Assembly: GCF_003075455.1 (NCBI RefSeq)
Contig: NZ_QDAE01000001.1
Location: 186,001-250,000 of the forward strand
Direction: 5' to 3'
DNA: 64,000 bases
Source: Arthrobacter sp. Bz4
Lineage (GTDB): Bacteria > Actinomycetota > Actinomycetes > Actinomycetales > Micrococcaceae
The number at the start of each line of letters is the position of its first letter. The stretch's first letter is position 1. A program made the position numbers and the translations under genes. The notes under the pieces are model-generated. The model worked only from the letters and a program-made list of their open reading frames with translations. It made no database searches and was not told where the DNA came from. Positions 1 through 13,256 of the stretch are shown here, one piece after another.

Positions 1-2330
1 TCGGGTTGGTTCCCCGGGGTCAACGCGCTGCGCAGGTAGTTGACCGAGCCGGTGACAGCATTCTTGAAGGCCTTGGGGGTGCCCGCACGGTAGACGGCGC
101 GCCAGTCGAACCCGGCGAGCATCTCACGCAGCATCTCCACCAGGGATTTGGTGAGCTCCACCGCCTCGTCGATGTTCTTTCCGATGGGCTTGCTCTGCTG
201 GTCGGTCTTGGAATACTCCGCCAGTGCCTTGGCCAGGTTGTCGGCCAGCGGCGCATACGCCACCAGCAGCCCGTCCTGTTTACCGCGGAAGGTGCGGTTC
301 ACCCGGGCGAGCGTCTGCATCAGCAGGGCACCCTTCAGCGGCCGGTCCAGGTACAGGGTGTGCAGCGGGGGCGAGTCGTACCCGGTGAGCATCATGTCCT
401 TGACGATCACTATCTCGAGTTCGTCGTCGACATTCCGCAGGCGTTCCTTGATGGTCGCGTTCGCCGAGTCCCGGCGCACATGGTCGACCACCGGGGGGAC
501 GTCCGACGGCGTGCCGGAGTACACCACCTTGATCTTGCCCTTGTCGAGGTCATCCGAGTGCCAGTCGGGGCGCAGCGCAATGATGGCCGTATACAGGTTG
601 GCGCAGATTTCCCGGGTGCCGCCGACGATCATGGCCTTGCCGGGCGATTCGATGAACTGGCGCATCTTGCCCGAACGATTTTCCCAGTGCGCCACCAGGT
701 CTTCCGCGAGGGCAGCGATGCGCTGAGGCGCCCCGTAGACCGCGTTTACGACGGCTACACTCGCCTCGATCCGTGCCCGCTCGGTGTCGTCCAGGCTCCG
801 GGTGATGTCATCGGCCGCCTGGTCGAGGGTTTCCTCGGTGACGTCCTTGGCCAGCGCCACCTTGATCAGCCGTGGTTCGAAATACACGGGAACGGTGGCC
901 CCGTCGTCGACCGCCCGGCTGAGGTCGTAGATATCGATGTACTCGCCGAACACGTCACGGGTGTTGCGGTCGTCGAAGGAAATGGGCGTTCCGGTGAACG
1001 CGATCAGGGTGGCCCGCGGCAGCGCGTCGCGCAGGTGGCGGGCGTAGCCGTCGAGGTCGTCGTAGTGGCTGCGGTGAGCTTCATCGACAATCACAATGAT
1101 GTTCCGCCGGTCCGAGAGCAGCGGATGGTCCACGCCGGCGTCCTTCTCCCCCTGGCTGCGGCCGAACTTCTGCAAGGTGGTGAAGTAGATGCCTCCCGTG
1201 GTTCGGCTGGAGAGTTCCTCGCGCAGTTCGGCCCGGCGGCGGATTTGCTGCGGTTTCTCCGGGAGCAGGAGGCTCTGCGCAAAGGTCTCGTACAGCTGGC
1301 CGTCGAGCTCGTTGCGGTCGGTGATCACCACGATGGTGGGATTGAGGAGCTTGGGATGGCGGGTGACCTGGTTGGTGTAGAGCTCCATCTCCATGGACTT
1401 GCCCGAGCCTTGCGTGTGCCAGACGACGCCGGCCTTCCCGTTGCTTGCAACCGCTGTGACGGTGCTGCCGACGGCCTTGGAGACGGCAAAGTATTGGTGG
1501 GGCTTGGCGATGCGTTTGGTCAGCCCCTCCGAGTTTTCATCGAACGCGGTGAAGCTGCGGGTCAGCTGAACGAACCGCTCGAGACTGTAGAGGCCGTCGA
1601 GGGCTAGCTCCAGTTCGGTGACCGGCTCGCCGTCGACGAGGGCGTCGCGGGCCACAGGTTCGCCGTCGTCGTCGACATTCCACGGCGAGAAGTGGTTCAG
1701 CGGGGTGAACGGCGTGCCGTACTTGGCGAGGATCCCATCCGAGGCGAGGGTGAAGACGCAGAAGCGGAAGGCAAGCGGGAATTCGCGGAGGTAGGTCTGC
1801 AGCTGTGCGTGCGCGGCGGGTACATCGGCTGAGCGGCTCCCAGCCCTCTTGAGTTCGATCACGCTGACCGGCATGCCGTTGCAGTAGAGCACGACGTCGA
1901 AGCGTCGTTTGTAGTCGCCCTGCCGGAGTGTGATCTGGTTGACGGCGAGCCAGTCGTTGTCGTCAGCGTCGGCGCTGAGGACGCGGAGGGTGGGATTGTG
2001 TTCGGTGCCGTCGGTGTCGATGTAGCTGATGCCGCGGTAGCCGTCGGTCAGATAGGTGTGGATGCGGTGGTTCTCGGTGATGGCATCAGTTGACTTGGGT
2101 GCCGTGATCTCGGCGACGGCCTGCTGCAGGTACTGCTGCGGCACGGTCGGGTTGAACTTCCGCAGCGCTGCGAGCAACCGCGGCCGGATGAGCAGGTCAT
2201 CCCAGGTGTCGCGCTCCCCTGATCCGGGTGCGATGGACTCACCAGTAACTGGTCGCCAGCCGAGATCGGCCAGCTGTTCCATGGCGAGGCCTTCCCAGAG
2301 CGCTTCGCTGAGACCTGTGGTTACTGTCAT
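1..2330 (-). CDS. hsdR: Type I restriction enzyme R subunit (HsdR), 3' end beyond window
   Basis: This is the motor and nuclease subunit of a type I restriction-modification complex: it translocates DNA with ATP and cuts unmodified DNA. The first 776 codons are present and the frame is still open at the left edge, so the C terminus is missing. The order is an N-terminal PD-(D/E)XK nuclease (FDVVLY then ELK near residue 159), a Walker A motif (TQGSGKS, near 306), a DEAH box (VDEAHRSH, near 415), TGTP near 445, and an arginine-rich helicase motif VI (ARVNRTFRGKQDG, near 675). The ATG at 2330 begins MTVTTGLSEALWE. The matching hsdS and hsdM lie about 4.8 kb away on the same strand, with unrelated genes between them. 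The gene starts 39 bases after the ABC permease stop. Confidence 0.93.
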   Translation of the reverse strand, partial: MTVTTGLSEALWEGLAMEQLADLGWRPVTGESIAPGSGERDTWDDLLIRPRLLAALRKFNPTVPQQYLQQAVAEITAPKSTDAITENHRIHTYLTDGYRGISYIDTDGTEHNPTLRVLSADADDNDWLAVNQITLRQGDYKRRFDVVLYCNGMPVSVIELKRAGSRSADVPAAHAQLQTYLREFPLAFRFCVFTLASDGILAKYGTPFTPLNHFSPWNVDDDGEPVARDALVDGEPVTELELALDGLYSLERFVQLTRSFTAFDENSEGLTKRIAKPHQYFAVSKAVGSTVTAVASNGKAGVVWHTQGSGKSMEMELYTNQVTRHPKLLNPTIVVITDRNELDGQLYETFAQSLLLPEKPQQIRRRAELREELSSRTTGGIYFTTLQKFGRSQGEKDAGVDHPLLSDRRNIIVIVDEAHRSHYDDLDGYARHLRDALPRATLIAFTGTPISFDDRNTRDVFGEYIDIYDLSRAVDDGATVPVYFEPRLIKVALAKDVTEETLDQAADDITRSLDDTERARIEASVAVVNAVYGAPQRIAALAEDLVAHWENRSGKMRQFIESPGKAMIVGGTREICANLYTAIIALRPDWHSDDLDKGKIKVVYSGTPSDVPPVVDHVRRDSANATIKERLRNVDDELEIVIVKDMMLTGYDSPPLHTLYLDRPLKGALLMQTLARVNRTFRGKQDGLLVAYAPLADNLAKALAEYSKTDQQSKPIGKNIDEAVELTKSLVEMLREMLAGFDWRAVYRAGTPKAFKNAVTGSVNYLRSALTPGNQP

Positions 2331-2369: not shown

Positions 2370-3227
2370 CTAGGCGTCGCGTCGGTGCAGCGTGATTGCG
2401 GCCGCCGCGAGGGGGACAACAGCGTAGGCGGCCAGCACGATCAGGCTCGCCTGTGTGGAGAGGTAGACACCTTGCGTCTCGGCTGCTCCGGTGGTGAGCA
2501 ACGCTGAGGACGCCGGCAGCGGTAGGTAGCTGACGATGGTCTCTACCCAGTCCAGGCGGATGAAGCTGAGGGTGCCGGGCAATAGCAGCAGGACGGTCAG
2601 GGCTACGGTCACGCTGGCGGCGGTGGAACGCAGGAGCGTGGCAATCCCAAGGGAGAACAGGGCGGCGGCGATGAGGGAGTAGAGGGTGCCGCCGAGGACG
2701 CGCCAGGTGCCCGGGTCGTCCAGCGCTGGGACGAGGTCGTACTGCGAGAGCTGGAGCATGGTGACGAGGTAGGACAGGGTCGCGCTCACGAGGGTCACGG
2801 CGGCCGTCAGCACAATCAGGACGAGGGCTTTGGCGCCAAGGACGGGGGTCCGGCTCGGAACAGCCGCGAACGTTGAGCGGATCGTGCCGGTGGCGTATTC
2901 CCCGGTGATGAGTAGGGCGCCCAGGACGGCAATGGTGAGCATGCCGAAATGGAAGCCACCTGCGATGACCTCGGCACCATGCATCTGCTCGATGCCCTGG
3001 GCCAGGGCGGGATCGTCGGTCGTGGCGCTCAGGGACATGGCGGAGGCCAGGGCCACCAACGTGATCACTGCGGCGGTGGAGGCCAGCGCCCACCACGTCG
3101 AGCGCAGGGACAGTACCTTGATCCATTCCCCACGCAAGATCCCCGGGAAGGTGGGATGCACCTGTGCAGCGGCGGGCGGGTTGGTGGCGTGTGCGGTCAT
3201 CGGCGGGTTGTCCGTCAACGTGCTCAT
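2370..3227 (-). CDS. ABC transporter permease
   Basis: A 285-residue integral membrane protein of the ABC-2 exporter type. A hydrophilic N-terminal stretch with GEWIKVLSLRSTWW, typical of this permease family just before the first helix, is followed by about six hydrophobic segments (for example residues 45-65, 95-115, 135-160, 180-205, 255-275). Its ATG lies inside the stop of the restored upstream ATPase frame (ATGA at 3224-3227), so the two are almost certainly translated together and form one exporter. The substrate cannot be told from sequence; relatives include drug exporters and bacitracin or lantibiotic immunity transporters. Confidence 0.85.
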   Translation of the reverse strand: MSTLTDNPPMTAHATNPPAAAQVHPTFPGILRGEWIKVLSLRSTWWALASTAAVITLVALASAMSLSATTDDPALAQGIEQMHGAEVIAGGFHFGMLTIAVLGALLITGEYATGTIRSTFAAVPSRTPVLGAKALVLIVLTAAVTLVSATLSYLVTMLQLSQYDLVPALDDPGTWRVLGGTLYSLIAAALFSLGIATLLRSTAASVTVALTVLLLLPGTLSFIRLDWVETIVSYLPLPASSALLTTGAAETQGVYLSTQASLIVLAAYAVVPLAAAAITLHRRDA

Positions 3228-4185
3228 CGGTTCTGGCCCTTCTGGTCTGGGGTGCTGTGGGCGGTGGTGCTGTGGGCGGTGGTGGGCTCGGAGCGGTACT
3301 CGACCGCGTCCTGAGTCAGGAACAGGTACGCCTCTTCGAGCTGGCGCCGCGTGGGGACAACTCGTACAGCGGCAGCCCGTTTCGGAAGGCGACCTGGCCG
3401 ACGTGTTCCGCGGTAGTCCCGCTGACCTCGAGCATGCTGGCGTCCGGAGAAGTGATGGTCACACCGTCGGCAGTCAGGGCGGCGGCGAGCTCGTCGGCGC
3501 GCGGGGAGCGCACCCGCACAGCGCCGCTCGCGACGGAGTCGATGACCTGTTGGACCGAGCCGGTGGCGATGATGTGACCGCGGCCGATCACCAGGAGCTG
3601 GTCCGCGGTCTGGGACATCTCGCTCATCAGGTGCGAGGACAGGAACACCGTCCGTCCCTCGGCGGCCAGGTCGCGCACCAACTGGCGAACCCATTGCACG
3701 CCCTCGGGGTCGAGCCCGTTGACTGGCTCATCCAGGATGAGCGTTCGGGGGTCGCCCAGAAGTGCTGCGGCGATGCCCAGGCGTTGACTCATGCCGAGGG
3801 AGAACCCGCCGACGCGCTTGGTCGCTGCCCCGGCCAGGCCGGTCATCTCGATGACCTCGCTGACGCGGGAGGCCTTGATGTGGTGGGTGGCGGCCATCGT
3901 GCGCAGGTGCGAGCGGGCGCTGCGGCCGGGGTGCACGGCCTTGGCGTCGAGCAGGGCGCCGACCTCCCGCAGCGGGGAACGGTGCTGCCCGTAGGGCTTG
4001 CCGTTTACCAGGACGGTGCCCGACGTCGGCCGGTCCAGTCCCATGATCAAGCGCATCGTCGTGGACTTGCCGGCACCGTTCGGGCCGAGGAACCCGGTCA
4101 CGGTGCCGGGCGCGATGGTGAAGCTGAGGGTGTGCACTGCGGTTTTGTCGCCGTAGCGCTTGGTGAGCTCGTGTGCCTCAATCAT
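3224..4185 (-). CDS. ABC transporter ATP-binding protein, frameshifted near the C terminus
   Basis: The ATPase half of the exporter. Walker A is GPNGAGKS (34-41), the signature is SLGMSQ (129-134) and Walker B is LILDEP (149-154), followed by the H-loop SSHLMSE. As sequenced the frame stops at 3316 after an out-of-place tail (GASSKRRTCS). Adding one C to the CCCC run at 3353-3356 (given as gggg on the plus strand) restores PTRRQLEEAYLFLTQD, the usual C-terminal family motif, and carries the frame to a stop at 3224, where it overlaps the permease start as ATGA. The coordinates given are those of the restored gene; the uninterrupted frame is 3316-4185. The lesion looks like a sequencing error, but a real mutation cannot be excluded. 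Confidence 0.85.
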
Positions 4186-4242
4186 GAGGACCTTCCTGGG
4201 TAACGGTGGGACTGGCGGATCTGATGCGACGGTTCGGCGTGA

Positions 4243-4280
4243 CCGTCCGGTAGGGGCCTCGGAAAGCCCCTACCGGACGG
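4243..4280 (-). terminator. Perfect 15-bp hairpin after the DUF6326 gene
   Basis: Bases 4243-4257 and 4266-4280 are perfectly complementary with an 8-base loop. The hairpin lies between the DUF6326 stop and the ABC ATPase start, in the direction of minus-strand transcription. There is no long T run, so it is either a terminator lacking a strong U tract or an mRNA-stabilising stem that separates the two transcription units. Confidence 0.6.
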
Positions 4281-4294
4281 GATTGCTTTTGAGT

Positions 4295-4792
4295 TCACGC
4301 TTGCTGCCGGGCGCGAATGGCTTCATGGTCCGGGCTGGTCGGCATGGTCGCCGACGGGGCGGTGCGGGGCCAGATCCAGGCGGAGCGCAGGATGAAGGCC
4401 AGGATCAGCAACTCGACTCCGATGGTAAGACCGTAGTAAAAGGCATAGTCCCAGGTCGCCCCTGCCGCGTTGAAGACGGAGAGGGGGATGAACAGCAATG
4501 CAACGACGAGGTTGGTGACGCGGTTCGCCCGGGCGGGCAGCGTCATCGAAAGCAGCACCATCAGACTCGGAATCGCTATGATCACGAAGAAAATGGACAT
4601 CAAGGTCCCGCTGATGTCGAAGACAAAGATCTCGCCACCCCGGATTTGGTCAATCTCGCCGGGCTGGTAGAGGTGGAAGTAGTCGATGTAAATGACGAGG
4701 AACATGAAGCTGGTCCAGGCGGCGGCGAGCTTGGCCTGCACAGGGATTCGCGGGTTGTCGAGCAGGGTCGGGGTTTTCGTTCGGAGGGTCAT
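4295..4792 (-). CDS. DUF6326 family small membrane protein
   Basis: A 165-residue protein with four predicted membrane helices (around 25-42, 60-82, 90-108 and 115-138) and a charged C-terminal tail. The N-terminal region with IDYFHLYQPG resembles DUF6326 proteins, a family of unknown function often found near TetR- or MarR-controlled genes. The hairpin just downstream suggests it is transcribed apart from the ABC genes. No catalytic residues are evident and I assign no function. Confidence 0.72.
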   Translation of the reverse strand: MTLRTKTPTLLDNPRIPVQAKLAAAWTSFMFLVIYIDYFHLYQPGEIDQIRGGEIFVFDISGTLMSIFFVIIAIPSLMVLLSMTLPARANRVTNLVVALLFIPLSVFNAAGATWDYAFYYGLTIGVELLILAFILRSAWIWPRTAPSATMPTSPDHEAIRARQQA

Positions 4793-4888
4793 CGGTCTTT
4801 CTTTCGATTGGAGCGGTCCGTCCGCCGGAGTGGCGGCAGGTTTGGGCGTGCATACGCACGCGTTGGGTCGGTCTCGTCGGTCCGGTCG

Positions 4889-5929
4889 TCAGACGGTGAT
4901 CACGACCTTTCCTCGGGTGTGGCCGGCTCCGACATAGCTGAGCGCGTCGGCCGCGTCGTCCAGCGGGTAGGTGCGGTCAATGACGGGCGTGACCTGCCCG
5001 GTCGTGAGCAGGTCCGCAAGGGTGAGCAGGTCCTGGCGCTTCCCGATCGATGTGAAGGGCTTCAGCTGCTGCCGGGTGAATCCGGACAGCACACGCGCTT
5101 TGACGATCCGGCCGACGGGGCCGAACCAGTGGCCGCCGCGTCCGCTGTTGGGAATCAGGATGCCGGTGGGCGTCAGCGCTCGGCGGACAGCCGCCAGGGG
5201 CTGGGCTTCCACGTTGTCGAGGATGACGTCGTAGCGCTTGTCGCTGCGGGTGAAGTCGGTCGTCGTGTAGTCAATGACGTGGTCGGCACCGAGTGACCGG
5301 ACCAGGTCGACGTTGCGGGTGCTACACACACCCGTCACCTCGGCACCAAACGCCTTGGCGATCTGTACGGCGAAGGAGCCCACGCCGCCTGACGCGCCCG
5401 TGACCAGCACCGTCTGGCCCGGTTGAACGTTCGCGATCTTGCGCAATGCCTGCAACGCCGTCATGGCCGAGGTGGGCACCGCTGCCGCGTCCGCGACCGA
5501 CAGGTTGGCAGGGATGGACACGAGGTTGTCCGCCGGAACGCAGGCGTACTCCGCGAGTGCTCCAGCGGTGCTCCAGCCGAACACCTCGTCGCCGGGGCGG
5601 AGAACGGTGACATCCTTGCCTACCGCTGCCACCACGCCGGCGAGGTCCATGCCAGGGATACCGTGGCGCGGCCGGCGGAGCCCGAACACCAGGCGCACCA
5701 TGTACGGCTCGCCAGTCATGACGAAGTAGTCGCCAGGGTGTACCGAGGCCGCGCTCACCCGGACGAGCACCTCGCCTCGACCGGGTAGCGGTAGCCCGAC
5801 CTCGGACACTTCGAGTACTGAGGGCGGGCCGTAGCGGTATTGGACGGCGGCCCGCATCATCGGCGCCTCGCCCAGCCTCTCCCCCGGCACCAGGGGTGCT
5901 CCGGCATTCGATCGCTGTTCGTTTCCCAC
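4889..5929 (-). CDS. NAD(P)-dependent zinc-free alcohol dehydrogenase / quinone oxidoreductase-like
   Basis: A medium-chain dehydrogenase/reductase of 346 residues. A GroES-like N-terminal half is followed by a Rossmann nucleotide-binding motif, TGASGGVG (177-184), and then SLGADHVIDY. The catalytic-zinc cysteine and histidine pattern is absent, so it belongs to the quinone-reductase side of the superfamily. I chose the GTG at 5929 because AGGAGG lies five bases upstream; the same frame opens further upstream (to 6031) but that part crosses the operator, and an internal ATG at residue 24 is also possible. It is divergent from tetR, with palindromic repeats between them, so repression by that TetR is likely. 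The substrate is unknown. Confidence 0.82.
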   Translation of the reverse strand: MGNEQRSNAGAPLVPGERLGEAPMMRAAVQYRYGPPSVLEVSEVGLPLPGRGEVLVRVSAASVHPGDYFVMTGEPYMVRLVFGLRRPRHGIPGMDLAGVVAAVGKDVTVLRPGDEVFGWSTAGALAEYACVPADNLVSIPANLSVADAAAVPTSAMTALQALRKIANVQPGQTVLVTGASGGVGSFAVQIAKAFGAEVTGVCSTRNVDLVRSLGADHVIDYTTTDFTRSDKRYDVILDNVEAQPLAAVRRALTPTGILIPNSGRGGHWFGPVGRIVKARVLSGFTRQQLKPFTSIGKRQDLLTLADLLTTGQVTPVIDRTYPLDDAADALSYVGAGHTRGKVVITV

Positions 5930-5967
5930 AAAAGCCTCCTTACGTTCAAGCAACGACTTTCGCTGCT

Positions 5968-6018
5968 CGTACACCGTACGACGTACGTTGTACGATAGAG
6001 TGTGAGCGTACGCTGTAC
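5968..6018. promoter_or_regulatory. Probable TetR operator between the oxidoreductase gene and tetR
   Basis: Bases 5968-5994 form a 27-base near-perfect palindrome built from 7-base steps: CGTAC recurs at 5968, 5975 and 5982, with TGTAC at 5989. A second perfect palindrome, AGCGTACGCT, lies at 6005-6014 and is followed by TGTAC. The site sits between two divergent starts, where an autoregulating TetR repressor normally binds. Binding itself is inferred. Confidence 0.75.
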
Positions 6019-6051
6019 TAATGTCAAGCATTTTGGGAAAGCGAGGAATTT

Positions 6052-6726
6052 GTGTCCGCTAGGGAACAACGCCAGGTTGCGTCAGACGCGGGGCTGACCA
6101 AACACCGGGTGGTGGTCGAGGCGATCCGGCTTGCCGACCGCGACGGGGTCGAAGGGTTGAGCATGCGCCGGCTGGCTCGCGAGCTTGGCGCGGGCGCGAT
6201 GTCCCTCTACCACTACGTGGCGAGCAAGGAGGAGTTGCTGGACGCGATGATCGACATCGTGTTCGAGGAGATTGAGCTCCCGCCCGAGGAGACCGACTGG
6301 CAGTCGGCGATGCGACGGCGTTCGGTATCCGCCCGGCAGGTTCTCTCGCGCCACCCGTGGGCGATTGGCCTGATGGACTCGCGGACATCGCCGGGGTCCG
6401 CGCACCTTCGCCACCGTGAGGCCGTCACCGCCTGCCTGCGGGGGGCCGGCTTCTCGGTCTTGATGGCGACGCACGCCAACTGGTTGCTCGACAGCCTTGT
6501 CTATGGTTACGCCCTGCAGGAAGCAAACTTGCCGTTCGATACGGCCGATGAGTTTGCGGACATGGCCGAGGACGTCTACCTGCCTCAGCTTCCTCCAGGC
6601 GAGTTCCCCTACCTCAACGAGTCCGCCGCGGCGCTCCTCGCTGCCGGCTTTGACCCGGCGGAGGAGTTCATCTTCGGCCTCGACCTCGCCCTGGCCGCCC
6701 TGGAGTCCCTGAGAGCTTCCGCATAG
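6052..6726 (+). CDS. TetR/AcrR family transcriptional regulator
   Basis: A 224-residue repressor. The N-terminal helix-turn-helix spans about 37-57 (SMRRLARELGAGAMSLYHYV), the part of the TetR domain that reads the operator; the rest is a helical ligand-binding domain of the TetR_C type. The start is GTG at 6052 with a GAGGAA ribosome site just upstream. It faces the oxidoreductase gene across the 5968-6018 palindromes and probably represses both that gene and itself. The inducer is unknown. Confidence 0.88.
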   Translation: MSAREQRQVASDAGLTKHRVVVEAIRLADRDGVEGLSMRRLARELGAGAMSLYHYVASKEELLDAMIDIVFEEIELPPEETDWQSAMRRRSVSARQVLSRHPWAIGLMDSRTSPGSAHLRHREAVTACLRGAGFSVLMATHANWLLDSLVYGYALQEANLPFDTADEFADMAEDVYLPQLPPGEFPYLNESAAALLAAGFDPAEEFIFGLDLALAALESLRASA

Positions 6727-7136: not shown

Positions 7137-8327
7137 CTAGACGAGTCCTTCGACCAGCACCTCGGCTTCTTTGACTCGTAGTTTGCCGGACATGAGTTGT
7201 GGCAGGATAAGGTCCCGTAGCTTCGCGAGAGATCCGCTTTCCAGTTCCTTAACGACGCACAAATCTAGAAGCGGACGGGCTCTGTCGCCGAAAGCACCCA
7301 AAGTGCGCTCGTCAGCTACCTCGACTAAGAGCGAGTCCACATCCTTCTTATTGACATGTTGTTGCGCAGCACCGGTGGCCTTCGTTAACAGCTCAGGCAT
7401 TCGCGAGTTAACCTCGAGATAAAGCCAATCATTCAAATCTGGGTTTCCGCTCCAGATACCTACAAGAGACTGATTTCCGCAGGCCGATATTTCAAGTCGC
7501 GCGATTTGTCCCAGCGTTGCCCCAGTGATGGCAACCACGGTAGTCCCCCTGGGCATCAGCTTTGTTGCACTCTTTTCCAAAGCACTTTCCGTGATCCATT
7601 CCGAAGGTTGCGTGATGATTGTTTCATTCGCCTTGCCAGAGTTTATCCATGCCACCGAGCCATTGATCCAAAATTCGGCGTTGTCACGAGAAGGCGTTCC
7701 TCCAAGGACTGTAGTTGCTAATGATCCTAGGGGCGCTTTGCGCACCTCCCTTTGCCGTAACCGTAGGTGTTCGTGAATCGATTGAAGGAGCTGGATCGAA
7801 TTTTTGGCCATCAAGGTGTTGGCGGCGATCTTGTCGTCGAGCGCGCCGAGCACCTCGGCAATCGCTCGTTGATCGCCTATCGGAGGTACTAGAAAGTGGA
7901 ATCTGGCAAGAACTGACTTGTTAATAATTGGTGTTGCCGATCCGGAGGCATGATCCTTCAGCGAGCCGCTCCAGTTTTTTATCATGTAGTAGATAAAACC
8001 GGCATCCGAGATGCTTTCGCGCGCGATGATGCTGTTAATCTGCTGATTGGTGATCGCCGCAGATCGCGTCATAGACACTTTCCCGATAGTGGACCCGATG
8101 CAAGTTAGGTTGGTCGACCGGGCAGGGACGACTCGGCTTTTCAATCGGCTGATGCCCGTTGCTGAAAGCCTTCGAGCGGGAGTTGCTTCCCTCAGACTAT
8201 CGCTTTGGTCAGATGGGGTAATGAAGTCACACTCATCACCCCATGAATCTGTTTGTCCAGAACTAGGAGTCGACCCAGTAATGATGGTGGCAATGGCCGA
8301 CAGCGGTCGGAGCGCGAAGTCAGACAT
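7137..8327 (-). CDS. hsdS: Type I restriction-modification specificity subunit (HsdS)
   Basis: The DNA-recognition subunit, 396 residues. Two target-recognition domains follow each other: the first begins RPLSAIATIITGSTP and the second PLGSLATTVLGGTPS. Each is followed by a conserved helical spacer (for example DQRAIAEVLGALDDKIAAN in the middle, and a C-terminal KLRDLILPQLMSGKL), which set the spacing of the two half-sites. I chose the ATG at 8327 (MSDFALRPL); it overlaps the hsdM stop by eight bases, which couples the two. The target sequence cannot be predicted without comparison to known domains. Base composition is lower in GC than the flanking genes, as is common for exchanged hsdS genes. 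Confidence 0.92.
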   Translation of the reverse strand: MSDFALRPLSAIATIITGSTPSSGQTDSWGDECDFITPSDQSDSLREATPARRLSATGISRLKSRVVPARSTNLTCIGSTIGKVSMTRSAAITNQQINSIIARESISDAGFIYYMIKNWSGSLKDHASGSATPIINKSVLARFHFLVPPIGDQRAIAEVLGALDDKIAANTLMAKNSIQLLQSIHEHLRLRQREVRKAPLGSLATTVLGGTPSRDNAEFWINGSVAWINSGKANETIITQPSEWITESALEKSATKLMPRGTTVVAITGATLGQIARLEISACGNQSLVGIWSGNPDLNDWLYLEVNSRMPELLTKATGAAQQHVNKKDVDSLLVEVADERTLGAFGDRARPLLDLCVVKELESGSLAKLRDLILPQLMSGKLRVKEAEVLVEGLV

Positions 8328-9930
8328 TAACCCGCCCCAACTGCTCCCGCACAACGGCAGCCAGCCGCTCCGACTCGGCGAACTGCTCAAACAGCTCAGC
8401 CGACAGCCGGGCGATCTTCTCCTCGATCGGCTCGCCGTCGTCTTCAACATCGGCCGCGCCGACATATCGACCAGGAGTCAGCGCATAGTCGGCCGCCTTG
8501 ATCCCCGCCAACGGGACAGACTTGCAGAACCCTGCGACGTCGTCGTATTCGATGCCCGACCCCTGAGCAGACGCTGACCCGCGCCACACGTGATAGGTCT
8601 CGGCGATCTTTGCGATGTCCTCGTCCGCGAGAGCACGCTCGGCACGGTCCACCAGGTAACCCAGGTTCCGCGCGTCGATGAAGAGCACCTCACCCGATCG
8701 GTCGACGGCTCCGGACGACTTGTCCTTCGCAAAGAACCACAGACACACCGGGATGCCGGTGCTCCGGAACAGCTGGGTGGGGAGCGCGACCATGCAGGAG
8801 ACCAGATCCGCCTCGACCAACTGCGCACGGATGTCACCCTCGCCGCCGGAATTCGACGACATGGACCCGTTAGCCATCACCACACCGGCGCTGCCACCCG
8901 GGGCGAGCTTCGAGATGATGTGCTGGATCCACGCATAGTTGGCATTGCCCACCGGCGGGACGCCGTACTTCCAGCGGGGATCACTTTCGGAGCGGGCCCA
9001 ATCCTTGATGTTGAAGGGCGGGTTGGCCATGATGAAGTCGGCCTGCAGATCCGGGTGCTGGTCACGCGCGAACGTGTCACCCCAACGGCTGGCCAGGTTA
9101 CCGTTCAGGCCGTGAATGGCAAGGTTCATCTTCGCCATCCGCCAGGTGCGCTCGTTCAGCTCCTGCCCGTAGACGGAGATGCTCGAACCCTCCTTGTTGT
9201 GCGACTCCAAGAACTTCTCGGTCTGCACAAACATGCCACCCGACCCACAGCACGGGTCGTACACGCGCCCGTGATCGGGCTCCAGCACCTCGACCAGCAC
9301 CCGGACGACGTCGGCCGGCGTGTAGAACTCCCCGCCCCGCTTTCCTTCGGCCTTCGCGAACTTCTCAAGGAAATACTCGTAGACCTCACCGAGGAGGTCG
9401 CGGGCCTTCGTAGCACCCTGCCCGGTAAACCGCGCTGAGTTGAAGAGGTCCAGTAGTTCACCAAGACGACGCTGGTCGATGTTGTCCCGGTTGAAGATCC
9501 GCGGCAGCGTTGCCGCGAGCGACGGGTTGGCGCCCATGACGGCGTCCATCGCGTCGTCGATCAACTCGCCAATGGTCTTGGCCGCTTCGCCGGCCGCCGC
9601 CTGCGTCCCCTTGGCGTTCTGCGCCAGATAGGTCCACCGTGCCTGCGTCGGTACCCAGAACACGCCCCGCCCGGTGTACTCGTCGACGTCGTCGATCATC
9701 TGCGCAATCTGATCCTCGCCGAACCCGTCGGCGCCAAGTTCAACCCGGATCTGCTCCCGGCGTTCGTCGAACGCGTCCGAAACGTACTTCAGGAACACCA
9801 GTCCCAGGATCACATCCTTGTACTGGGATGCGTCCATGGAGCCGCGCAGCTTGTCGGCCGCCTTCCACAGGGTGTCCTTGAGTTCCTTCATGGTGGACGG
9901 CAGGGCGTCCACCTTCACTTTCGGGGGCAC
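8320..9930 (-). CDS. hsdM: Type I restriction-modification DNA methyltransferase subunit (HsdM)
   Basis: The N6-adenine methyltransferase of the type I complex, 536 residues. An N-terminal helical domain (KLRGSMDASQYKDVILGLVFLK) precedes the AdoMet-binding motif I, DPCCGSGG (225-232), and the catalytic NPPF (303-306). I chose GTG at 9930 because AAGGA precedes it and because the frame further upstream lies inside the neighbouring gene. Its start overlaps the upstream methylase-like gene by 16 bases and its stop overlaps hsdS by eight, so all three genes are read as one coupled unit. All catalytic residues are present. Confidence 0.94.
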   Translation of the reverse strand: MPPKVKVDALPSTMKELKDTLWKAADKLRGSMDASQYKDVILGLVFLKYVSDAFDERREQIRVELGADGFGEDQIAQMIDDVDEYTGRGVFWVPTQARWTYLAQNAKGTQAAAGEAAKTIGELIDDAMDAVMGANPSLAATLPRIFNRDNIDQRRLGELLDLFNSARFTGQGATKARDLLGEVYEYFLEKFAKAEGKRGGEFYTPADVVRVLVEVLEPDHGRVYDPCCGSGGMFVQTEKFLESHNKEGSSISVYGQELNERTWRMAKMNLAIHGLNGNLASRWGDTFARDQHPDLQADFIMANPPFNIKDWARSESDPRWKYGVPPVGNANYAWIQHIISKLAPGGSAGVVMANGSMSSNSGGEGDIRAQLVEADLVSCMVALPTQLFRSTGIPVCLWFFAKDKSSGAVDRSGEVLFIDARNLGYLVDRAERALADEDIAKIAETYHVWRGSASAQGSGIEYDDVAGFCKSVPLAGIKAADYALTPGRYVGAADVEDDGEPIEEKIARLSAELFEQFAESERLAAVVREQLGRVNV

Positions 9931-11990
9931 TGGGGTGTTCCTTCCATCGGGGCGGCGGGGGTGTGTTCGCCGAGGGTCACGGTGTTGCTGGCTACGCCGT
10001 CCATGATCAGCGTAGCGAGTTGAGTGAGTTGATTGACGCGTTCGAGTGCGGCGAGCCGCTCCTGCTCGACGGCGTCGAGCGTGCGCCTGAGAAGATCCCG
10101 CTGGTCGACGTCGACCGCGCGGACTGTCCACGACCTCCACCTCCGTGCTGTCGGCGGCTGGCTGTTGATGTCGTCGGCGAGCAGCCCCGCTACCAGTCCC
10201 AGCTGACCTCTACTGGTTTGTCCCTCACCGACAATCCTGAGGATGCGGGCTGGGTACGCGACGACGGCTGCGCCGTCGGGATCCACGAGAGCGACGGGCC
10301 TCGGTCCCGTGCAGAAGACGACGTCGCCCGGCTCGGTGAGTCGGCCGGCCGGGTAGTGGGCAGAGAACCGGAACCGGTCCATCACTGCTGGTGGCTCCCC
10401 GTCGAAGAGCGACCCGGCGGTGATCACTGTGACGGCACCGGGCGAGCCGGGGTCGCCAGCGCGAAGATCTGCTGCCTCGATTCGGTTCCCGGGGAGGTAA
10501 ACGACCGCGCCGGCGTCGGCCAGGTCTCCTAGAACCCTCTCGACCGGGCTCTCCGGTTTCTTCGTTGGGATCACCTGCACATCCAGACTCCGAACGGTTT
10601 CCGGCTGTTCGAGTAATGACAGGAGGTTCTCGACGTGTAACACCGCGTCAGCTGGCTGAGCGGTCCTGTTGCGTGGAAGTGGCCGAGCCTTGACCAGCGA
10701 ACCGCGGGCTGCGAGCATCGACGACGTCCTCACCAGCCGCGCGAACCGAAACGAATGCTTCTCCACCGACCGCCGGTTGCCCATCGCAGCGGCGAGATCG
10801 CTGATCAGATCCTCGATGTCCGTTGTGGACAGGGATGTTCCGGAGAGGTCGGACACCATCGTCCACCGATCGGCCAAAGCCACCTCGGCATGTGCGGGGC
10901 CGAGTACCCACAAGGCCATCGCCTGGCGGGGCTTCGAGGTGAGCAAACCTTGAGGCAAGCGGACGACGGCGCGCAGTCGCCCCGTGCGCAAAATGGCTGA
11001 CCGGACGGCTTCGCTCTCCCCCGCCGCGCCCTCCACGCTCAACGCATCACAGAGCGCACTTGCGGGGCCAAATGCTACGGCGCGGTCATCATCGGTGAGC
11101 CGGAGACATATCTTGTCGATGGCGTTCAGGATCGTAACGTCGCCAGGGTCCTGGTTACCTGCGTGAGGAAACTGGGCCAGGTGAAGTGCTGAAGAGCGCT
11201 GGCCAACGGGGCCGGCGTCGTCGTCAATTGCCTCAAGCACCAGGCCATGAGTGTGGAGACGCCGCAAACCGCGCCGAGATGCTGCCGTGTCGAATCCGCC
11301 CCAGGCGAGGGCGCACCGGACAGTCCCGTAACCCTCACTCAGCTTCAGGAGAATGTCGCTGCTCCCCGGCGAGTGATCCACAACCAGCCGTGATCCATCT
11401 CGCGAGCCGAGCAGCGCGGCCACCGCGGCAGCCACCAGGCTGACGGCGTCTCGGTGAATTTCTCCACCCTGCAGCCCGAGCCTCCGCTCGGAGGTGAGCA
11501 GCAGGTCGAATGCGGCCGCCGGGCTGTAGGCTGCGTCCGCCAGTGCGTCTGCCGTCGCTGCGAGGAAGGCCAGCTGGTCGCCGGTCGCTTCCATTTCGCG
11601 ATAGAGGCTTTGGTTATGCGGATCGTGGTCGTCAGCCAAATCCAGCAGTTCGGCATTGGATAGACCGCTCAGTCGCTCACCGCTCAGAACCTTCAGGCAC
11701 AGGAGGGCCGTCAACGCGTCAGTCCCTGACTGGTCGGCAGCTATGCCCGTGCGAAATGCGTCGGCGTCGAGATGAGCGGAGGGATTGTTGCCGCGACCGG
11801 TGTCGTGGAGCCACCGACCAATCTCAGCGGGGTCGAATGCCGGTTGGCTTGATGAGCTGTCGGTAGGCGCTGGAAAAGGTAGATCGGCATCTCGGTAGCG
11901 TCGTCGCCACATGGAGACCACCGGACGTGCAACCTGGGCCAGACGAGCCACATCGGCAAGGGACATATCGGTCTCGGTCATCTTCGGCAT
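9915..11990 (-). CDS. HTH protein with degenerate N6-methylase-like and specificity-like regions
   Basis: A 691-residue protein encoded ahead of hsdM. Residues 8-31 form a helix-turn-helix (MSLADVARLAQVARPVVSMW), followed by FDPAEIGRWL. Residues 200-370 follow the layout of N-6 DNA methylases: VVDHSPGSSDIL sits where motif I (DPxxGSG) belongs, and GRLRAVVRLPQGLL...QAMALWVLGP matches the hsdM stretch VALPTQLFRSTGIPVCLWFF. The NPPF/Y catalytic motif is absent and motif I has lost its second glycine, so methylation is unlikely. Residues 515-590 (ITAGSLFD, then EPGDVVFCTGPRPVALVD) and the helical tail 620-665 resemble an HsdS half. The ATG has GGAGG four bases upstream. Coupling to hsdM suggests a partner or regulator of the type I complex; the function is not known. 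Confidence 0.75.
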   Translation of the reverse strand: MPKMTETDMSLADVARLAQVARPVVSMWRRRYRDADLPFPAPTDSSSSQPAFDPAEIGRWLHDTGRGNNPSAHLDADAFRTGIAADQSGTDALTALLCLKVLSGERLSGLSNAELLDLADDHDPHNQSLYREMEATGDQLAFLAATADALADAAYSPAAAFDLLLTSERRLGLQGGEIHRDAVSLVAAAVAALLGSRDGSRLVVDHSPGSSDILLKLSEGYGTVRCALAWGGFDTAASRRGLRRLHTHGLVLEAIDDDAGPVGQRSSALHLAQFPHAGNQDPGDVTILNAIDKICLRLTDDDRAVAFGPASALCDALSVEGAAGESEAVRSAILRTGRLRAVVRLPQGLLTSKPRQAMALWVLGPAHAEVALADRWTMVSDLSGTSLSTTDIEDLISDLAAAMGNRRSVEKHSFRFARLVRTSSMLAARGSLVKARPLPRNRTAQPADAVLHVENLLSLLEQPETVRSLDVQVIPTKKPESPVERVLGDLADAGAVVYLPGNRIEAADLRAGDPGSPGAVTVITAGSLFDGEPPAVMDRFRFSAHYPAGRLTEPGDVVFCTGPRPVALVDPDGAAVVAYPARILRIVGEGQTSRGQLGLVAGLLADDINSQPPTARRWRSWTVRAVDVDQRDLLRRTLDAVEQERLAALERVNQLTQLATLIMDGVASNTVTLGEHTPAAPMEGTPQCPRK

Positions 11991-12157
11991 GCCTCCTCCT
12001 TTATCCGCGGTTCTGGGATCTGACCCTACCTGTTGTTCGACGCAATCTAGAGCATTTGTTGATAACGGGGGTTATCGCATTCAAACGGCTCTGGATGTGG
12101 GGAGTGACCGTAGCGTTCATTTCCACAAGCACCATGACCTCCCATGAAAGGACTGCC

Positions 12158-12439
12158 ATGAAGTACATTCGCCAGATTCATTTGGATAGCCCCGGCACAA
12201 GAAGCGAGCACATCTCCCGGGTCAACCACTCGGATACCCCTACCGGCTCGCTGTCCGAATCCTCCAGGACGAAGATCGTGCAGCAGATCACGGCTGGTAC
12301 TGAAACCTACCAAAGCCGTAACTCGAACGGCGCGCAGGCCCCGGTGGTGGTGCGAACCAGCGGACTGGGAACCAAGTACATCGCGACTGTCAGCGACGGC
12401 CGCGAGACCAACAATCTGCTGAGTCTTCCCAAGTACTAA
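12158..12439 (+). CDS. DUF3892 domain-containing protein
   Basis: A 93-residue protein. It begins MKYIRQIHLD after an AAAGGA ribosome site six bases upstream of the ATG at 12158 and ends with NNLLSLPKY, the characteristic C terminus of DUF3892, which also carries the YIAT/DG pattern seen here. The family is small, cytoplasmic and of unknown function. The frame extends further upstream but without a ribosome site. A strong hairpin follows the stop, so it is probably a single-gene transcript diverging from the methylase-like gene. Confidence 0.75.
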   Translation: MKYIRQIHLDSPGTRSEHISRVNHSDTPTGSLSESSRTKIVQQITAGTETYQSRNSNGAQAPVVVRTSGLGTKYIATVSDGRETNNLLSLPKY

Positions 12440-12454
12440 GCAAACCCACAGTCT

Positions 12455-12490
12455 GCGGTTGGAAGCGGCATGGGGGCCGCTTCCAACCGC
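12455..12490 (+). terminator. Perfect 15-bp hairpin after the DUF3892 gene
   Basis: Bases 12455-12469 and 12476-12490 are exact reverse complements around a six-base loop. The stem begins 15 bases after the DUF3892 stop. No T run follows it, so termination efficiency is uncertain. Confidence 0.65.
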
Positions 12491-12527
12491 TCCCTACTTG
12501 TCACCAACCTCTTCAGAAGGATCTTCA

Positions 12528-13256
12528 ATGAAAAAGAACTTGGCAATCTACGCAGTCGGCCTACTCGCCCTTACCGGCTGTTCAAACGCGGCGTCCGATC
12601 CGGTGGAGACGCCGGAGACGGCCGCGACGAGCTCGACCGCCCCGGTCGAGTCCACTCCGTCATCGGATGATGCGGCGGCGCCGTCGGCAGCCGGGACCGA
12701 GACCGGGTCCGCGACGCCGTCGCCGTCGCCTGAGGAGACTGAGGAGGCTGAGGAGGCTGAGGAGGCTGAGGAGGCTGAGGAGGCTGAGGAGGCTGAGGAG
12801 CCCGAGACTAGCGACAGGGGAAACCTGGTCAAGGACGTCGGTGAGCCTGCAGGCATCTTCAATACCAATGACCGCAGCACGAACGTCATCGACTTCACCG
12901 TGACGTCGATCGCCCCAGCCAAGTGCACCGAAGAGTACGCTCAGCCGCCGATTAACGGTCACTACCTAGCAGTGCAACTCGATGTCGAAACCCAGCCAGA
13001 GTTGAAAGATGAACTCGGCGGCAGCTTCTACGCTGACGCTGGAGCCTGGAAGTTCATTCAAGCCGACGGAACCACGTTCAACGGCATGTTGTTTGGCAAC
13101 TCCTACGGCTGCCTGCCAGAGACCGCCATTTTGCCGCAGTCAATCGGCCCCGGCGAGACAGCTTCCGGAACGGTTCTCCTCGATGTCCCCGCGCTGGAGG
13201 GAACGCTGGTGTTGTCCTATCTGGGCGAAGACGCCTGGGAATGGGTCATCCCCTAA
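12528..13256 (+). CDS. Repeat-containing lipoprotein with a C-terminal DUF4352-like domain
   Basis: A secreted, lipid-anchored protein of 242 residues. The ATG at 12528 follows an AGAAGGA ribosome site. Its N terminus, MKKNLAIYAVGLLALTGCSN, has a charged start, a hydrophobic core and a lipobox (LTGC) with the cysteine at residue 18. A low-complexity linker rich in T, S, E and A contains six EEA repeats. From about residue 105 an immunoglobulin-like region starts (VGEPAGIF, then NGHYLAVQLDVET), similar in pattern to DUF4352-type domains of actinobacterial lipoproteins. The ligand or role is unknown. The linker probably lifts the domain through the cell wall. Confidence 0.78.
   Translation: MKKNLAIYAVGLLALTGCSNAASDPVETPETAATSSTAPVESTPSSDDAAAPSAAGTETGSATPSPSPEETEEAEEAEEAEEAEEAEEAEEPETSDRGNLVKDVGEPAGIFNTNDRSTNVIDFTVTSIAPAKCTEEYAQPPINGHYLAVQLDVETQPELKDELGGSFYADAGAWKFIQADGTTFNGMLFGNSYGCLPETAILPQSIGPGETASGTVLLDVPALEGTLVLSYLGEDAWEWVIP
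12741..12794. repeat. Six perfect 9-bp tandem repeats inside the lipoprotein gene
   Basis: The unit GAGGAGGCT is repeated six times, flanked by one diverged copy on each side (12732-12740 and 12795-12803). Each unit encodes Glu-Glu-Ala, so copy-number change by slippage would keep the frame and only alter linker length. Confidence 0.95.

Follow-up and report, generated by a model that had tools for sequence, protein, structure and literature searches.

Controller (C) proteins are small (about 80-100 amino acids, aa), single-domain helix-turn-helix (HTH) regulators without a methylase-like domain. They are encoded by restriction-modification (RM) systems and act as autoregulators with sites at their own promoters, according to PMC12707154, which also describes M.EcoRII, M.Ecl18kI and M.SsoII as methyltransferases (MTases) with a fused repressor domain controlling their own or a partner gene, and reports that catalytically inactive M.EcoRII still represses if another enzyme methylates its sites. 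Among type I systems, HsdC of Mycoplasma loci binds direct repeats, (GTGTTAN5)2 (PMC5282649), and RptR of the Gammaproteobacteria is a 9-kDa single-domain four-helix repressor of repeated TAGCTA sites overlapping the -10 (PMC12255303); both show that a type I operon can have its regulator encoded by its first gene. Here we describe a gene of comparable position and very different make-up, which we call DM, in a 64,000-nucleotide (nt) stretch of the Arthrobacter sp. Bz4 genome (NZ_QDAE01000001.1, positions 186,001 to 250,000; hereafter the window). Judged from sequence and structural modelling, its product is probably a transcription factor dedicated to the type I operon that encodes it, regulating itself as well and acting through an 18-bp palindrome.

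9915..11990, minus strand: DM, the name used here for the pseudo-methyltransferase gene and its protein; ATG start, 691 aa, standing first in the type I operon

Like M.EcoRII, M.Ecl18kI and M.SsoII, DM combines a methyltransferase frame with a fused regulatory domain, but those proteins are active type II enzymes, whereas DM appears catalytically dead, follows an HsdM/half-HsdS plan and stands first in a type I operon that has its own HsdM. With RptR it shares the leading place in a type I operon, a palindromic arrangement of sites in the promoter of its own gene and a wide linkage to type I systems; it is unlike RptR in being 691 aa long and actinobacterial, with a single 18-bp site upstream of the -10. 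Set against the C proteins and HsdC, DM has further domains within its 691 aa and a palindrome rather than direct repeats. It would thus be a candidate RM-linked autoregulator that differs from RptR and HsdC in size, make-up and site, and searches of the open-access PMC literature listed no description of a pseudo-methyltransferase in such a role.

The palindrome upstream of DM conforms exactly or nearly so to the consensus TGATAACCC|GGGTTATCA and is followed by putative promoter elements.

12060..12077, minus strand: operator CGATAACCCCCGTTATCA, an 18-bp palindrome upstream of DM
12023..12028, minus strand: -10-like hexamer TAGGGT at a distance of 31 bp from the operator, with no conserved -35
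11995..12000, minus strand: Shine-Dalgarno-like AGGAGG ahead of the DM start codon, read from the sequence

When the 400 nt upstream of the first 45 loci were scored against TGATAA-N6-TTATCA, 29 loci matched at 12/12 positions, 14 at 11 and one at 10, the 45th (L042) having its operator just inside an over-extended open reading frame (ORF); among 1800 mononucleotide shuffles, seven reached 10/12 and none reached at least 11. Core operator bases are 97-100% conserved in the 45 loci of the host family (Micrococcaceae), and the exact GATAA-N6-TTATC core is present in 61 of 66 rows, with variants in L049, L129, L131, L133 and L134 (9 or 11 of 12). These 45- and 66-row counts take in L074 and L062 and leave out the broken copies L075, L140 and L141. 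The palindrome also precedes DM homologues in other families and orders, in two plasmid records and in one phage record. Within the 3.41-Mb host genome GATAAN6TTATC occurs once only, at 12060-12077 of the window, and YGATAAN6TTATCR is held by 42/44 DM-positive genomes versus 26/251 others (Fisher 1.9e-30, kinship ignored); these genome counts, like the 15/32 genera and the 44/47 hsdM genes given below, were tallied by eye. The spacing from the palindrome to the start of a TANNNT hexamer (in a conserved block TAnGCTG) is exactly 31 bp at 34/44 loci and 32-33 bp at eight. Nothing is conserved at the -35 position upstream of DM in the host-family loci, and a generic sigma-70 scan of 11900-12500 found no promoter, so the -10 is called from its conservation.

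Separately, the nonamer TTRTNCACA, which resembles a DnaA box, lies near or between the operator and the -10 at 10/44 loci, all of genus g25 (L047, L051, L054, L055, L056, L059, L060, L061, L063 and L068), as compared with 17/4400 shuffles. Such sites could tie RM expression to replication.

A conserved site does not by itself name its binder, and the palindrome is found somewhere in those 26 genomes without DM, as would be expected if a host-encoded regulator bound it and DM had another job. We regard this as very unlikely: the window's own genome holds the site only ahead of DM, and the site travels on plasmids and across orders. Its presence also follows that of DM. In L165, a locus with hsdM (85% identical), hsdS and hsdR and without DM, the operator is absent (best match 9/12 within 1200 nt), and the orphan L123 has kept DM and operator with no hsdM within the 15 kb fetched. 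A second hsdM-hsdS-hsdR set in the host's own genome (C12, L168) has neither DM nor the exact operator core. The host-regulator explanation is further opposed by covariation between the operator and the N-terminal domain of DM.

11799..11966, minus strand: N-terminal helix-turn-helix, excisionase/AlpA-like (residues 9-64; AlphaFold2 model)
11898..11927, minus strand: recognition helix RPVVSMWRRR (residues 22-31), in which changes at residues 24/25 go with changes at base 3 of the operator

Four loci differ at operator base 3, L129 and L133 in one arm (TGGTAA) and L134 and L131 in both arms (TGTTAA, or CGTTAA in one of the two loci), and recognition-helix residue 24 or 25 is changed (RPVP, RQAV) in 4/4 of these variants versus 2/61 others (Fisher 2.2e-5, kinship ignored). 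The tree places L131 beside L126, and L134 beside L127/L128; these three neighbours all have normal operators and V24, where L131 and L134 have alanine. Since L131 and L134 are not sisters, whereas L129 and L133 are, about three separate covariation events are indicated. A five-protein comparison found 11 residues separating L131/L134 from L126-L128, four of them in the HTH and one in the target recognition domain (TRD). This covariation suggests that it is the HTH which reads the palindrome. A search for further base-3 variants, covering the family of G465 and both the family and the order of G493, yielded no additional full-length DM. Of the roles floated in the original prediction, binding of the protein to its own promoter is thus well supported at the sequence level by the conserved operator and its covariation with the recognition helix.

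The remainder of DM resembles a type I modification enzyme that has lost its catalytic motifs.

10659..11771, minus strand: HsdM-like methyltransferase fold, catalytic motifs lost (residues 74-444)
11355..11378, minus strand: motif I remnant DHSPGSSD (residues 205-212)
11166..11189, minus strand: expected NPPY site, reading ALHLAQFP (residues 268-275)
10113..10544, minus strand: HsdS-like TRD, not hypervariable (residues 483-626)
9990..10109, minus strand: long C-terminal helix in the model (residues 628-667), possibly a dimerisation helix as in half-HsdS proteins

The ORF, its HTH and a methylase-like region with DHSPGSS and without NPPF/Y had been noted at the outset and are borne out by the sequence and by an AlphaFold2 model built on a 43-row alignment (mean pLDDT 83.6). 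The MTase domain aligns with solved HsdM chains over 319-336 residues at Z 21-22 and 11-16% identity (12-16% for the EcoR124I, StySJI and PacII chains). The best Foldseek match, at E 1.9e-14, is 7EEW (PDB title: Vibrio vulnificus 'intact MTase' with Ocr), which aligns with DM residues 77-678 (Z 20.7, 504 aligned) at a root-mean-square deviation of 30 because the domains are placed differently; as the aligned part starts at chain residue 7, 7EEW has no room for such an N-terminal HTH. The half HsdS ending in a helical spacer that the original prediction had read after the methylase region corresponds to the TRD at about residues 483-626 and the helix at 628-667 of the model, and residues 480-668 join the HsdS alignment in a profile comparison (hhalign probability 88.9, E 2.7e-7); the model has one TRD, versus the two expected of HsdS. 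The HTH, the best-conserved part of DM (median identity 55%), weakly matches phrog_2620, 'excisionase and transcriptional regulator' (E 0.0089). No convincing family emerged when the DM sequence was searched in Pfam, NCBIfam, PADLOC, PDB sequences and PHROGs, and a PDB profile search returned, besides two unrelated chains, 2okc_A (StySJI M protein) at E 0.015. Two plasmid records annotate DM as 'hypothetical protein'; the adjacent hsdM and hsdS are recognised at once by Pfam, NCBIfam and PADLOC.

In DM the motif I region, DPxxGSG in active enzymes, reads VVDHSPGSSDILL (residues 203-215), and the motif IV position reads LHLAQFPHAG, without NPPF/Y. Motif IV, [NDS]PP[YFWH], is present in 0/64 full-length members, and motif I is unrecognisable in L126-L128, L131 and L134. 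It is highly improbable, then, that DM has remained a methyltransferase, only with unusual motifs, and methylates its own operator or another fixed site, even with an intact-looking motif I in L130 and L132, GGSD common at motif I among host-family members, and the existence of methylase-like relatives. By its motifs DM is most likely a pseudo-methyltransferase with an HsdM-like fold and not an active N6-adenine methyltransferase. The original prediction had allowed for refutation by a structure without a methyltransferase fold or by close homologues with intact motifs; the fold is present in the model and NPPY is absent throughout the family, and neither refutation holds.

DM is a widespread family with a constant neighbour. 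The host-family search matched 54/295 genomes, counted by eye as 44 with DM proper (46 loci, some split or cut) and 10 with distant relatives only, placing DM proper in 15/32 genera (18/32 if distant matches are counted). A class search matched 101/394 genomes, mostly in the HTH alone, and the 40 places fetched from it included 16 further full-length DM from other families and orders. Mean pairwise identity is 44% (45 rows); full-length frames in the host family are 31-83% identical to the window protein and have the invariant residues. Twenty-six sampled DM form one clade (support 99/98) against 27 HTH-methylase relatives. The alignment A1 excludes the contig-end L074, the frameshifted L075 and L062, a near-copy of L053, and no alignment contains the partial DM that G029 has where its contig ends. 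hsdM is next on the same strand at 62/64 full-length loci, overlapping DM or separated by at most 60 nt in 60 of the 62, and the only DM without a following hsdM are the orphan L123 and the contig-end L074. The question of whether homologues always precede hsdM and always lack NPPY is accordingly answered: the first holds with these two exceptions and the second throughout, and the broken motif I holds for most members and not for L130 and L132. Seen from hsdM, DM adjoins 44 of the 47 host-family genes of at least 78% identity, the others lying at contig ends (G029, G105) or, in G079, without DM; of 16 hsdM rows at 49-57% identity, the three inspected were the host's own C12, G214 and G240. 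hsdR lies within the fetched stretch at 26/45 host-family and 15/20 class loci.

This distribution bears on the idea that DM is a functionless decayed duplicate of hsdM/hsdS, for which the missing catalytic motifs and a few broken copies (L075, L139-L141) could be cited. Full-length frames across those 15 genera, invariant residues, a conserved operator and descent as one clade already contradict it, and we give it next to no credence. The broken copies L139, L140, L141 and L075 still carry the palindrome, in L141 as the symmetric variant TGATAG-N6-CTATCA. A scan of viral contigs found no relative, and one of genome contigs matched only Arthrobacter sp. H20. A human faecal contig recorded as 'bacteriophage' but unverified, MT835479.1 (L164), contains DM-hsdM-hsdS-hsdR (hsdR cut by the stretch end) with the operator AGATAAGGCCCCTTATCA.

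The methylase-like and TRD parts of DM raise the further possibility that it is chiefly a protein partner, co-assembling with HsdM/HsdS and throttling the complex, with the operator secondary. The HsdM-like fold, the HsdS-like TRD and helix, and the tight coupling to hsdM would suit such a role. Over 946 locus pairs (44 loci), however, median identity is 55% for the HTH, 43% for the MTase-like part and 43% for the TRD of DM versus 85% for HsdM, unlike a tight obligate interface, and L165 is a sister hsdMSR set that manages without DM. In the same pairs the HsdS TRDs are hypervariable (TRD1 18%, TRD2 16%) and the DM TRD does not vary with them. A primary partner role therefore seems to us decidedly unlikely. 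Because the DM TRD is constant while the HsdS TRDs vary, DM and HsdS are not on the same DNA target, and the suggestion that DM competes for or senses the type I target sites is not borne out; since its TRD does not change with the HsdS targets, DM most likely serves a fixed DNA site.

A second role could be combined with regulation, in which anti-restriction proteins, incoming DNA or free HsdM/HsdS would pull DM off its operator and so reset expression of the restriction operon. The dead HsdM/half-HsdS module would then keep the surface that a type I methylase uses to bind DNA-like proteins, 7EEW, the best structural match, having been solved with the DNA mimic Ocr, and the fast divergence of the MTase-like part (43% versus 85% for HsdM) would reflect an arms race. 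We consider such a decoy or alarm function unlikely.

Relatives of DM with the same N terminus, which the original prediction had described as active enzymes, were found further away as 27 HTH-N6-methylase proteins at 26 actinobacterial loci (L076-L081, L142-L161). They share the order HTH, MTase, TRD with DM (profile probabilities 98.5-99.3), have hsdM next at 9/26 loci, and five of five tested match Pfam N6_Mtase. Unlike DM, they retain, by loose patterns, motif I in 26/27 and an xPP motif IV in 17/27 (8/27 by the strict [NDS]PP[YFW]), the partial loss showing that these relatives, too, include degraded forms. Exact GATAA-N6-TTATC was not found in their fetched stretches, and no palindrome is common to the 13 loci of methylase-like relatives compared. 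Methylase-like or part-degraded HTH-methylases stand before hsdM at L077-L081, L143, L146, L147, L156 and L169, with motif IV reading DPPYG (L077, L078), EPPLG (L156), EGPWG (L079), HPPFG (L080) or HAPFG (L081); to judge from these differences between lines, loss of catalysis may have happened on more than one occasion.

We propose that the ancestor of DM was an adenine methyltransferase that bore an HTH and contained half a specificity domain, and that its catalysis was lost. The likely history would be that an HTH-methylase autoregulator of the M.EcoRII kind lost catalysis where the HsdM of the operon methylates, its HTH function being kept. A DM dimer, perhaps formed via the C-terminal helix, would set two N-terminal HTHs on TGATAACCC|GGGTTATCA, the centre of which lies some 52 bp ahead of where transcription is predicted to start, and binding would set transcription of DM-hsdM-hsdS, plus hsdR where it follows directly. 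The constant 31-bp spacing and the lack of a -35 lead us mildly to favour activation, or a mixed activation and repression like that of C proteins.

Several points weigh against a role for DM as regulator through this site, or against its details. The 26 genomes without DM that hold the palindrome have one or two copies each. L034 and L138 (the 2/61) have residue 24 changed and yet a normal operator core, and the operators of L131 and L134 score only 9/12, a value reached by 88/1800 shuffles (10 by seven), despite being perfect GTTAA-N6-TTAAC palindromes; their -10 spacing is also off (25 and 35). Poor -35 boxes are frequent in actinobacterial promoters. The pTM of the DM model is only 0.57, which makes the placement of its domains uncertain, and a profile comparison of its MTase part with the HsdM alignment from the same loci gave no match, so that the relation to HsdM is drawn from the fold and from the HTH-MTase relatives. 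The intact-like motif I (DPAAGAG) kept in 2/64 members, L130 and L132, indicates that S-adenosylmethionine binding may survive in some DM. Lastly, an HTH alone could suffice for regulation, and the conservation of the large remainder of DM would then be unexplained.

Downstream of DM the operon continues with recognisable type I genes.

8320..9930, minus strand: hsdM, GTG start at 9930; full-length N6_Mtase match
7137..8327, minus strand: hsdS, start inferred at an internal ATG; longest ORF from 8465
1..2330, minus strand: 5' part of hsdR, a 1062-aa ORF extending past the window start

The order on the minus strand is DM, hsdM, hsdS, a 4.8-kb insert and hsdR. The DM stop codon ends at 9915 and the hsdM GTG lies at 9930, in agreement with the 16-base overlap originally noted. 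Between hsdS and hsdR (2370-6726) are ORFs for TetR-like, quinone-oxidoreductase-like and DoxX-like proteins and an ABC transporter with permease, named by eye from their translations; several of them also lie 3' of hsdS in Arthrobacter sp. H20 (L031), and many relatives have hsdR directly after hsdS without an insert. Upstream of DM, opposite-strand genes for apparently membrane-anchored proteins recur at host-family loci (clusters c3 at 23 loci, c4 at 19, c8 at nine), the same place being taken by a DUF4352 protein in L162 and, in the window, by an ORF with a lipobox-like LTGC (12459-13256).

Since no searched family library recognised DM, it would escape any defence-finding tool that relies on libraries of this kind. 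The present analysis defines the protein family and its operator, predicts the geometry of the promoter and singles out residues as candidates for setting specificity. In this family a whole DNA methyltransferase has apparently been recycled as a transcription factor, while methylase-like relatives persist in the same class.

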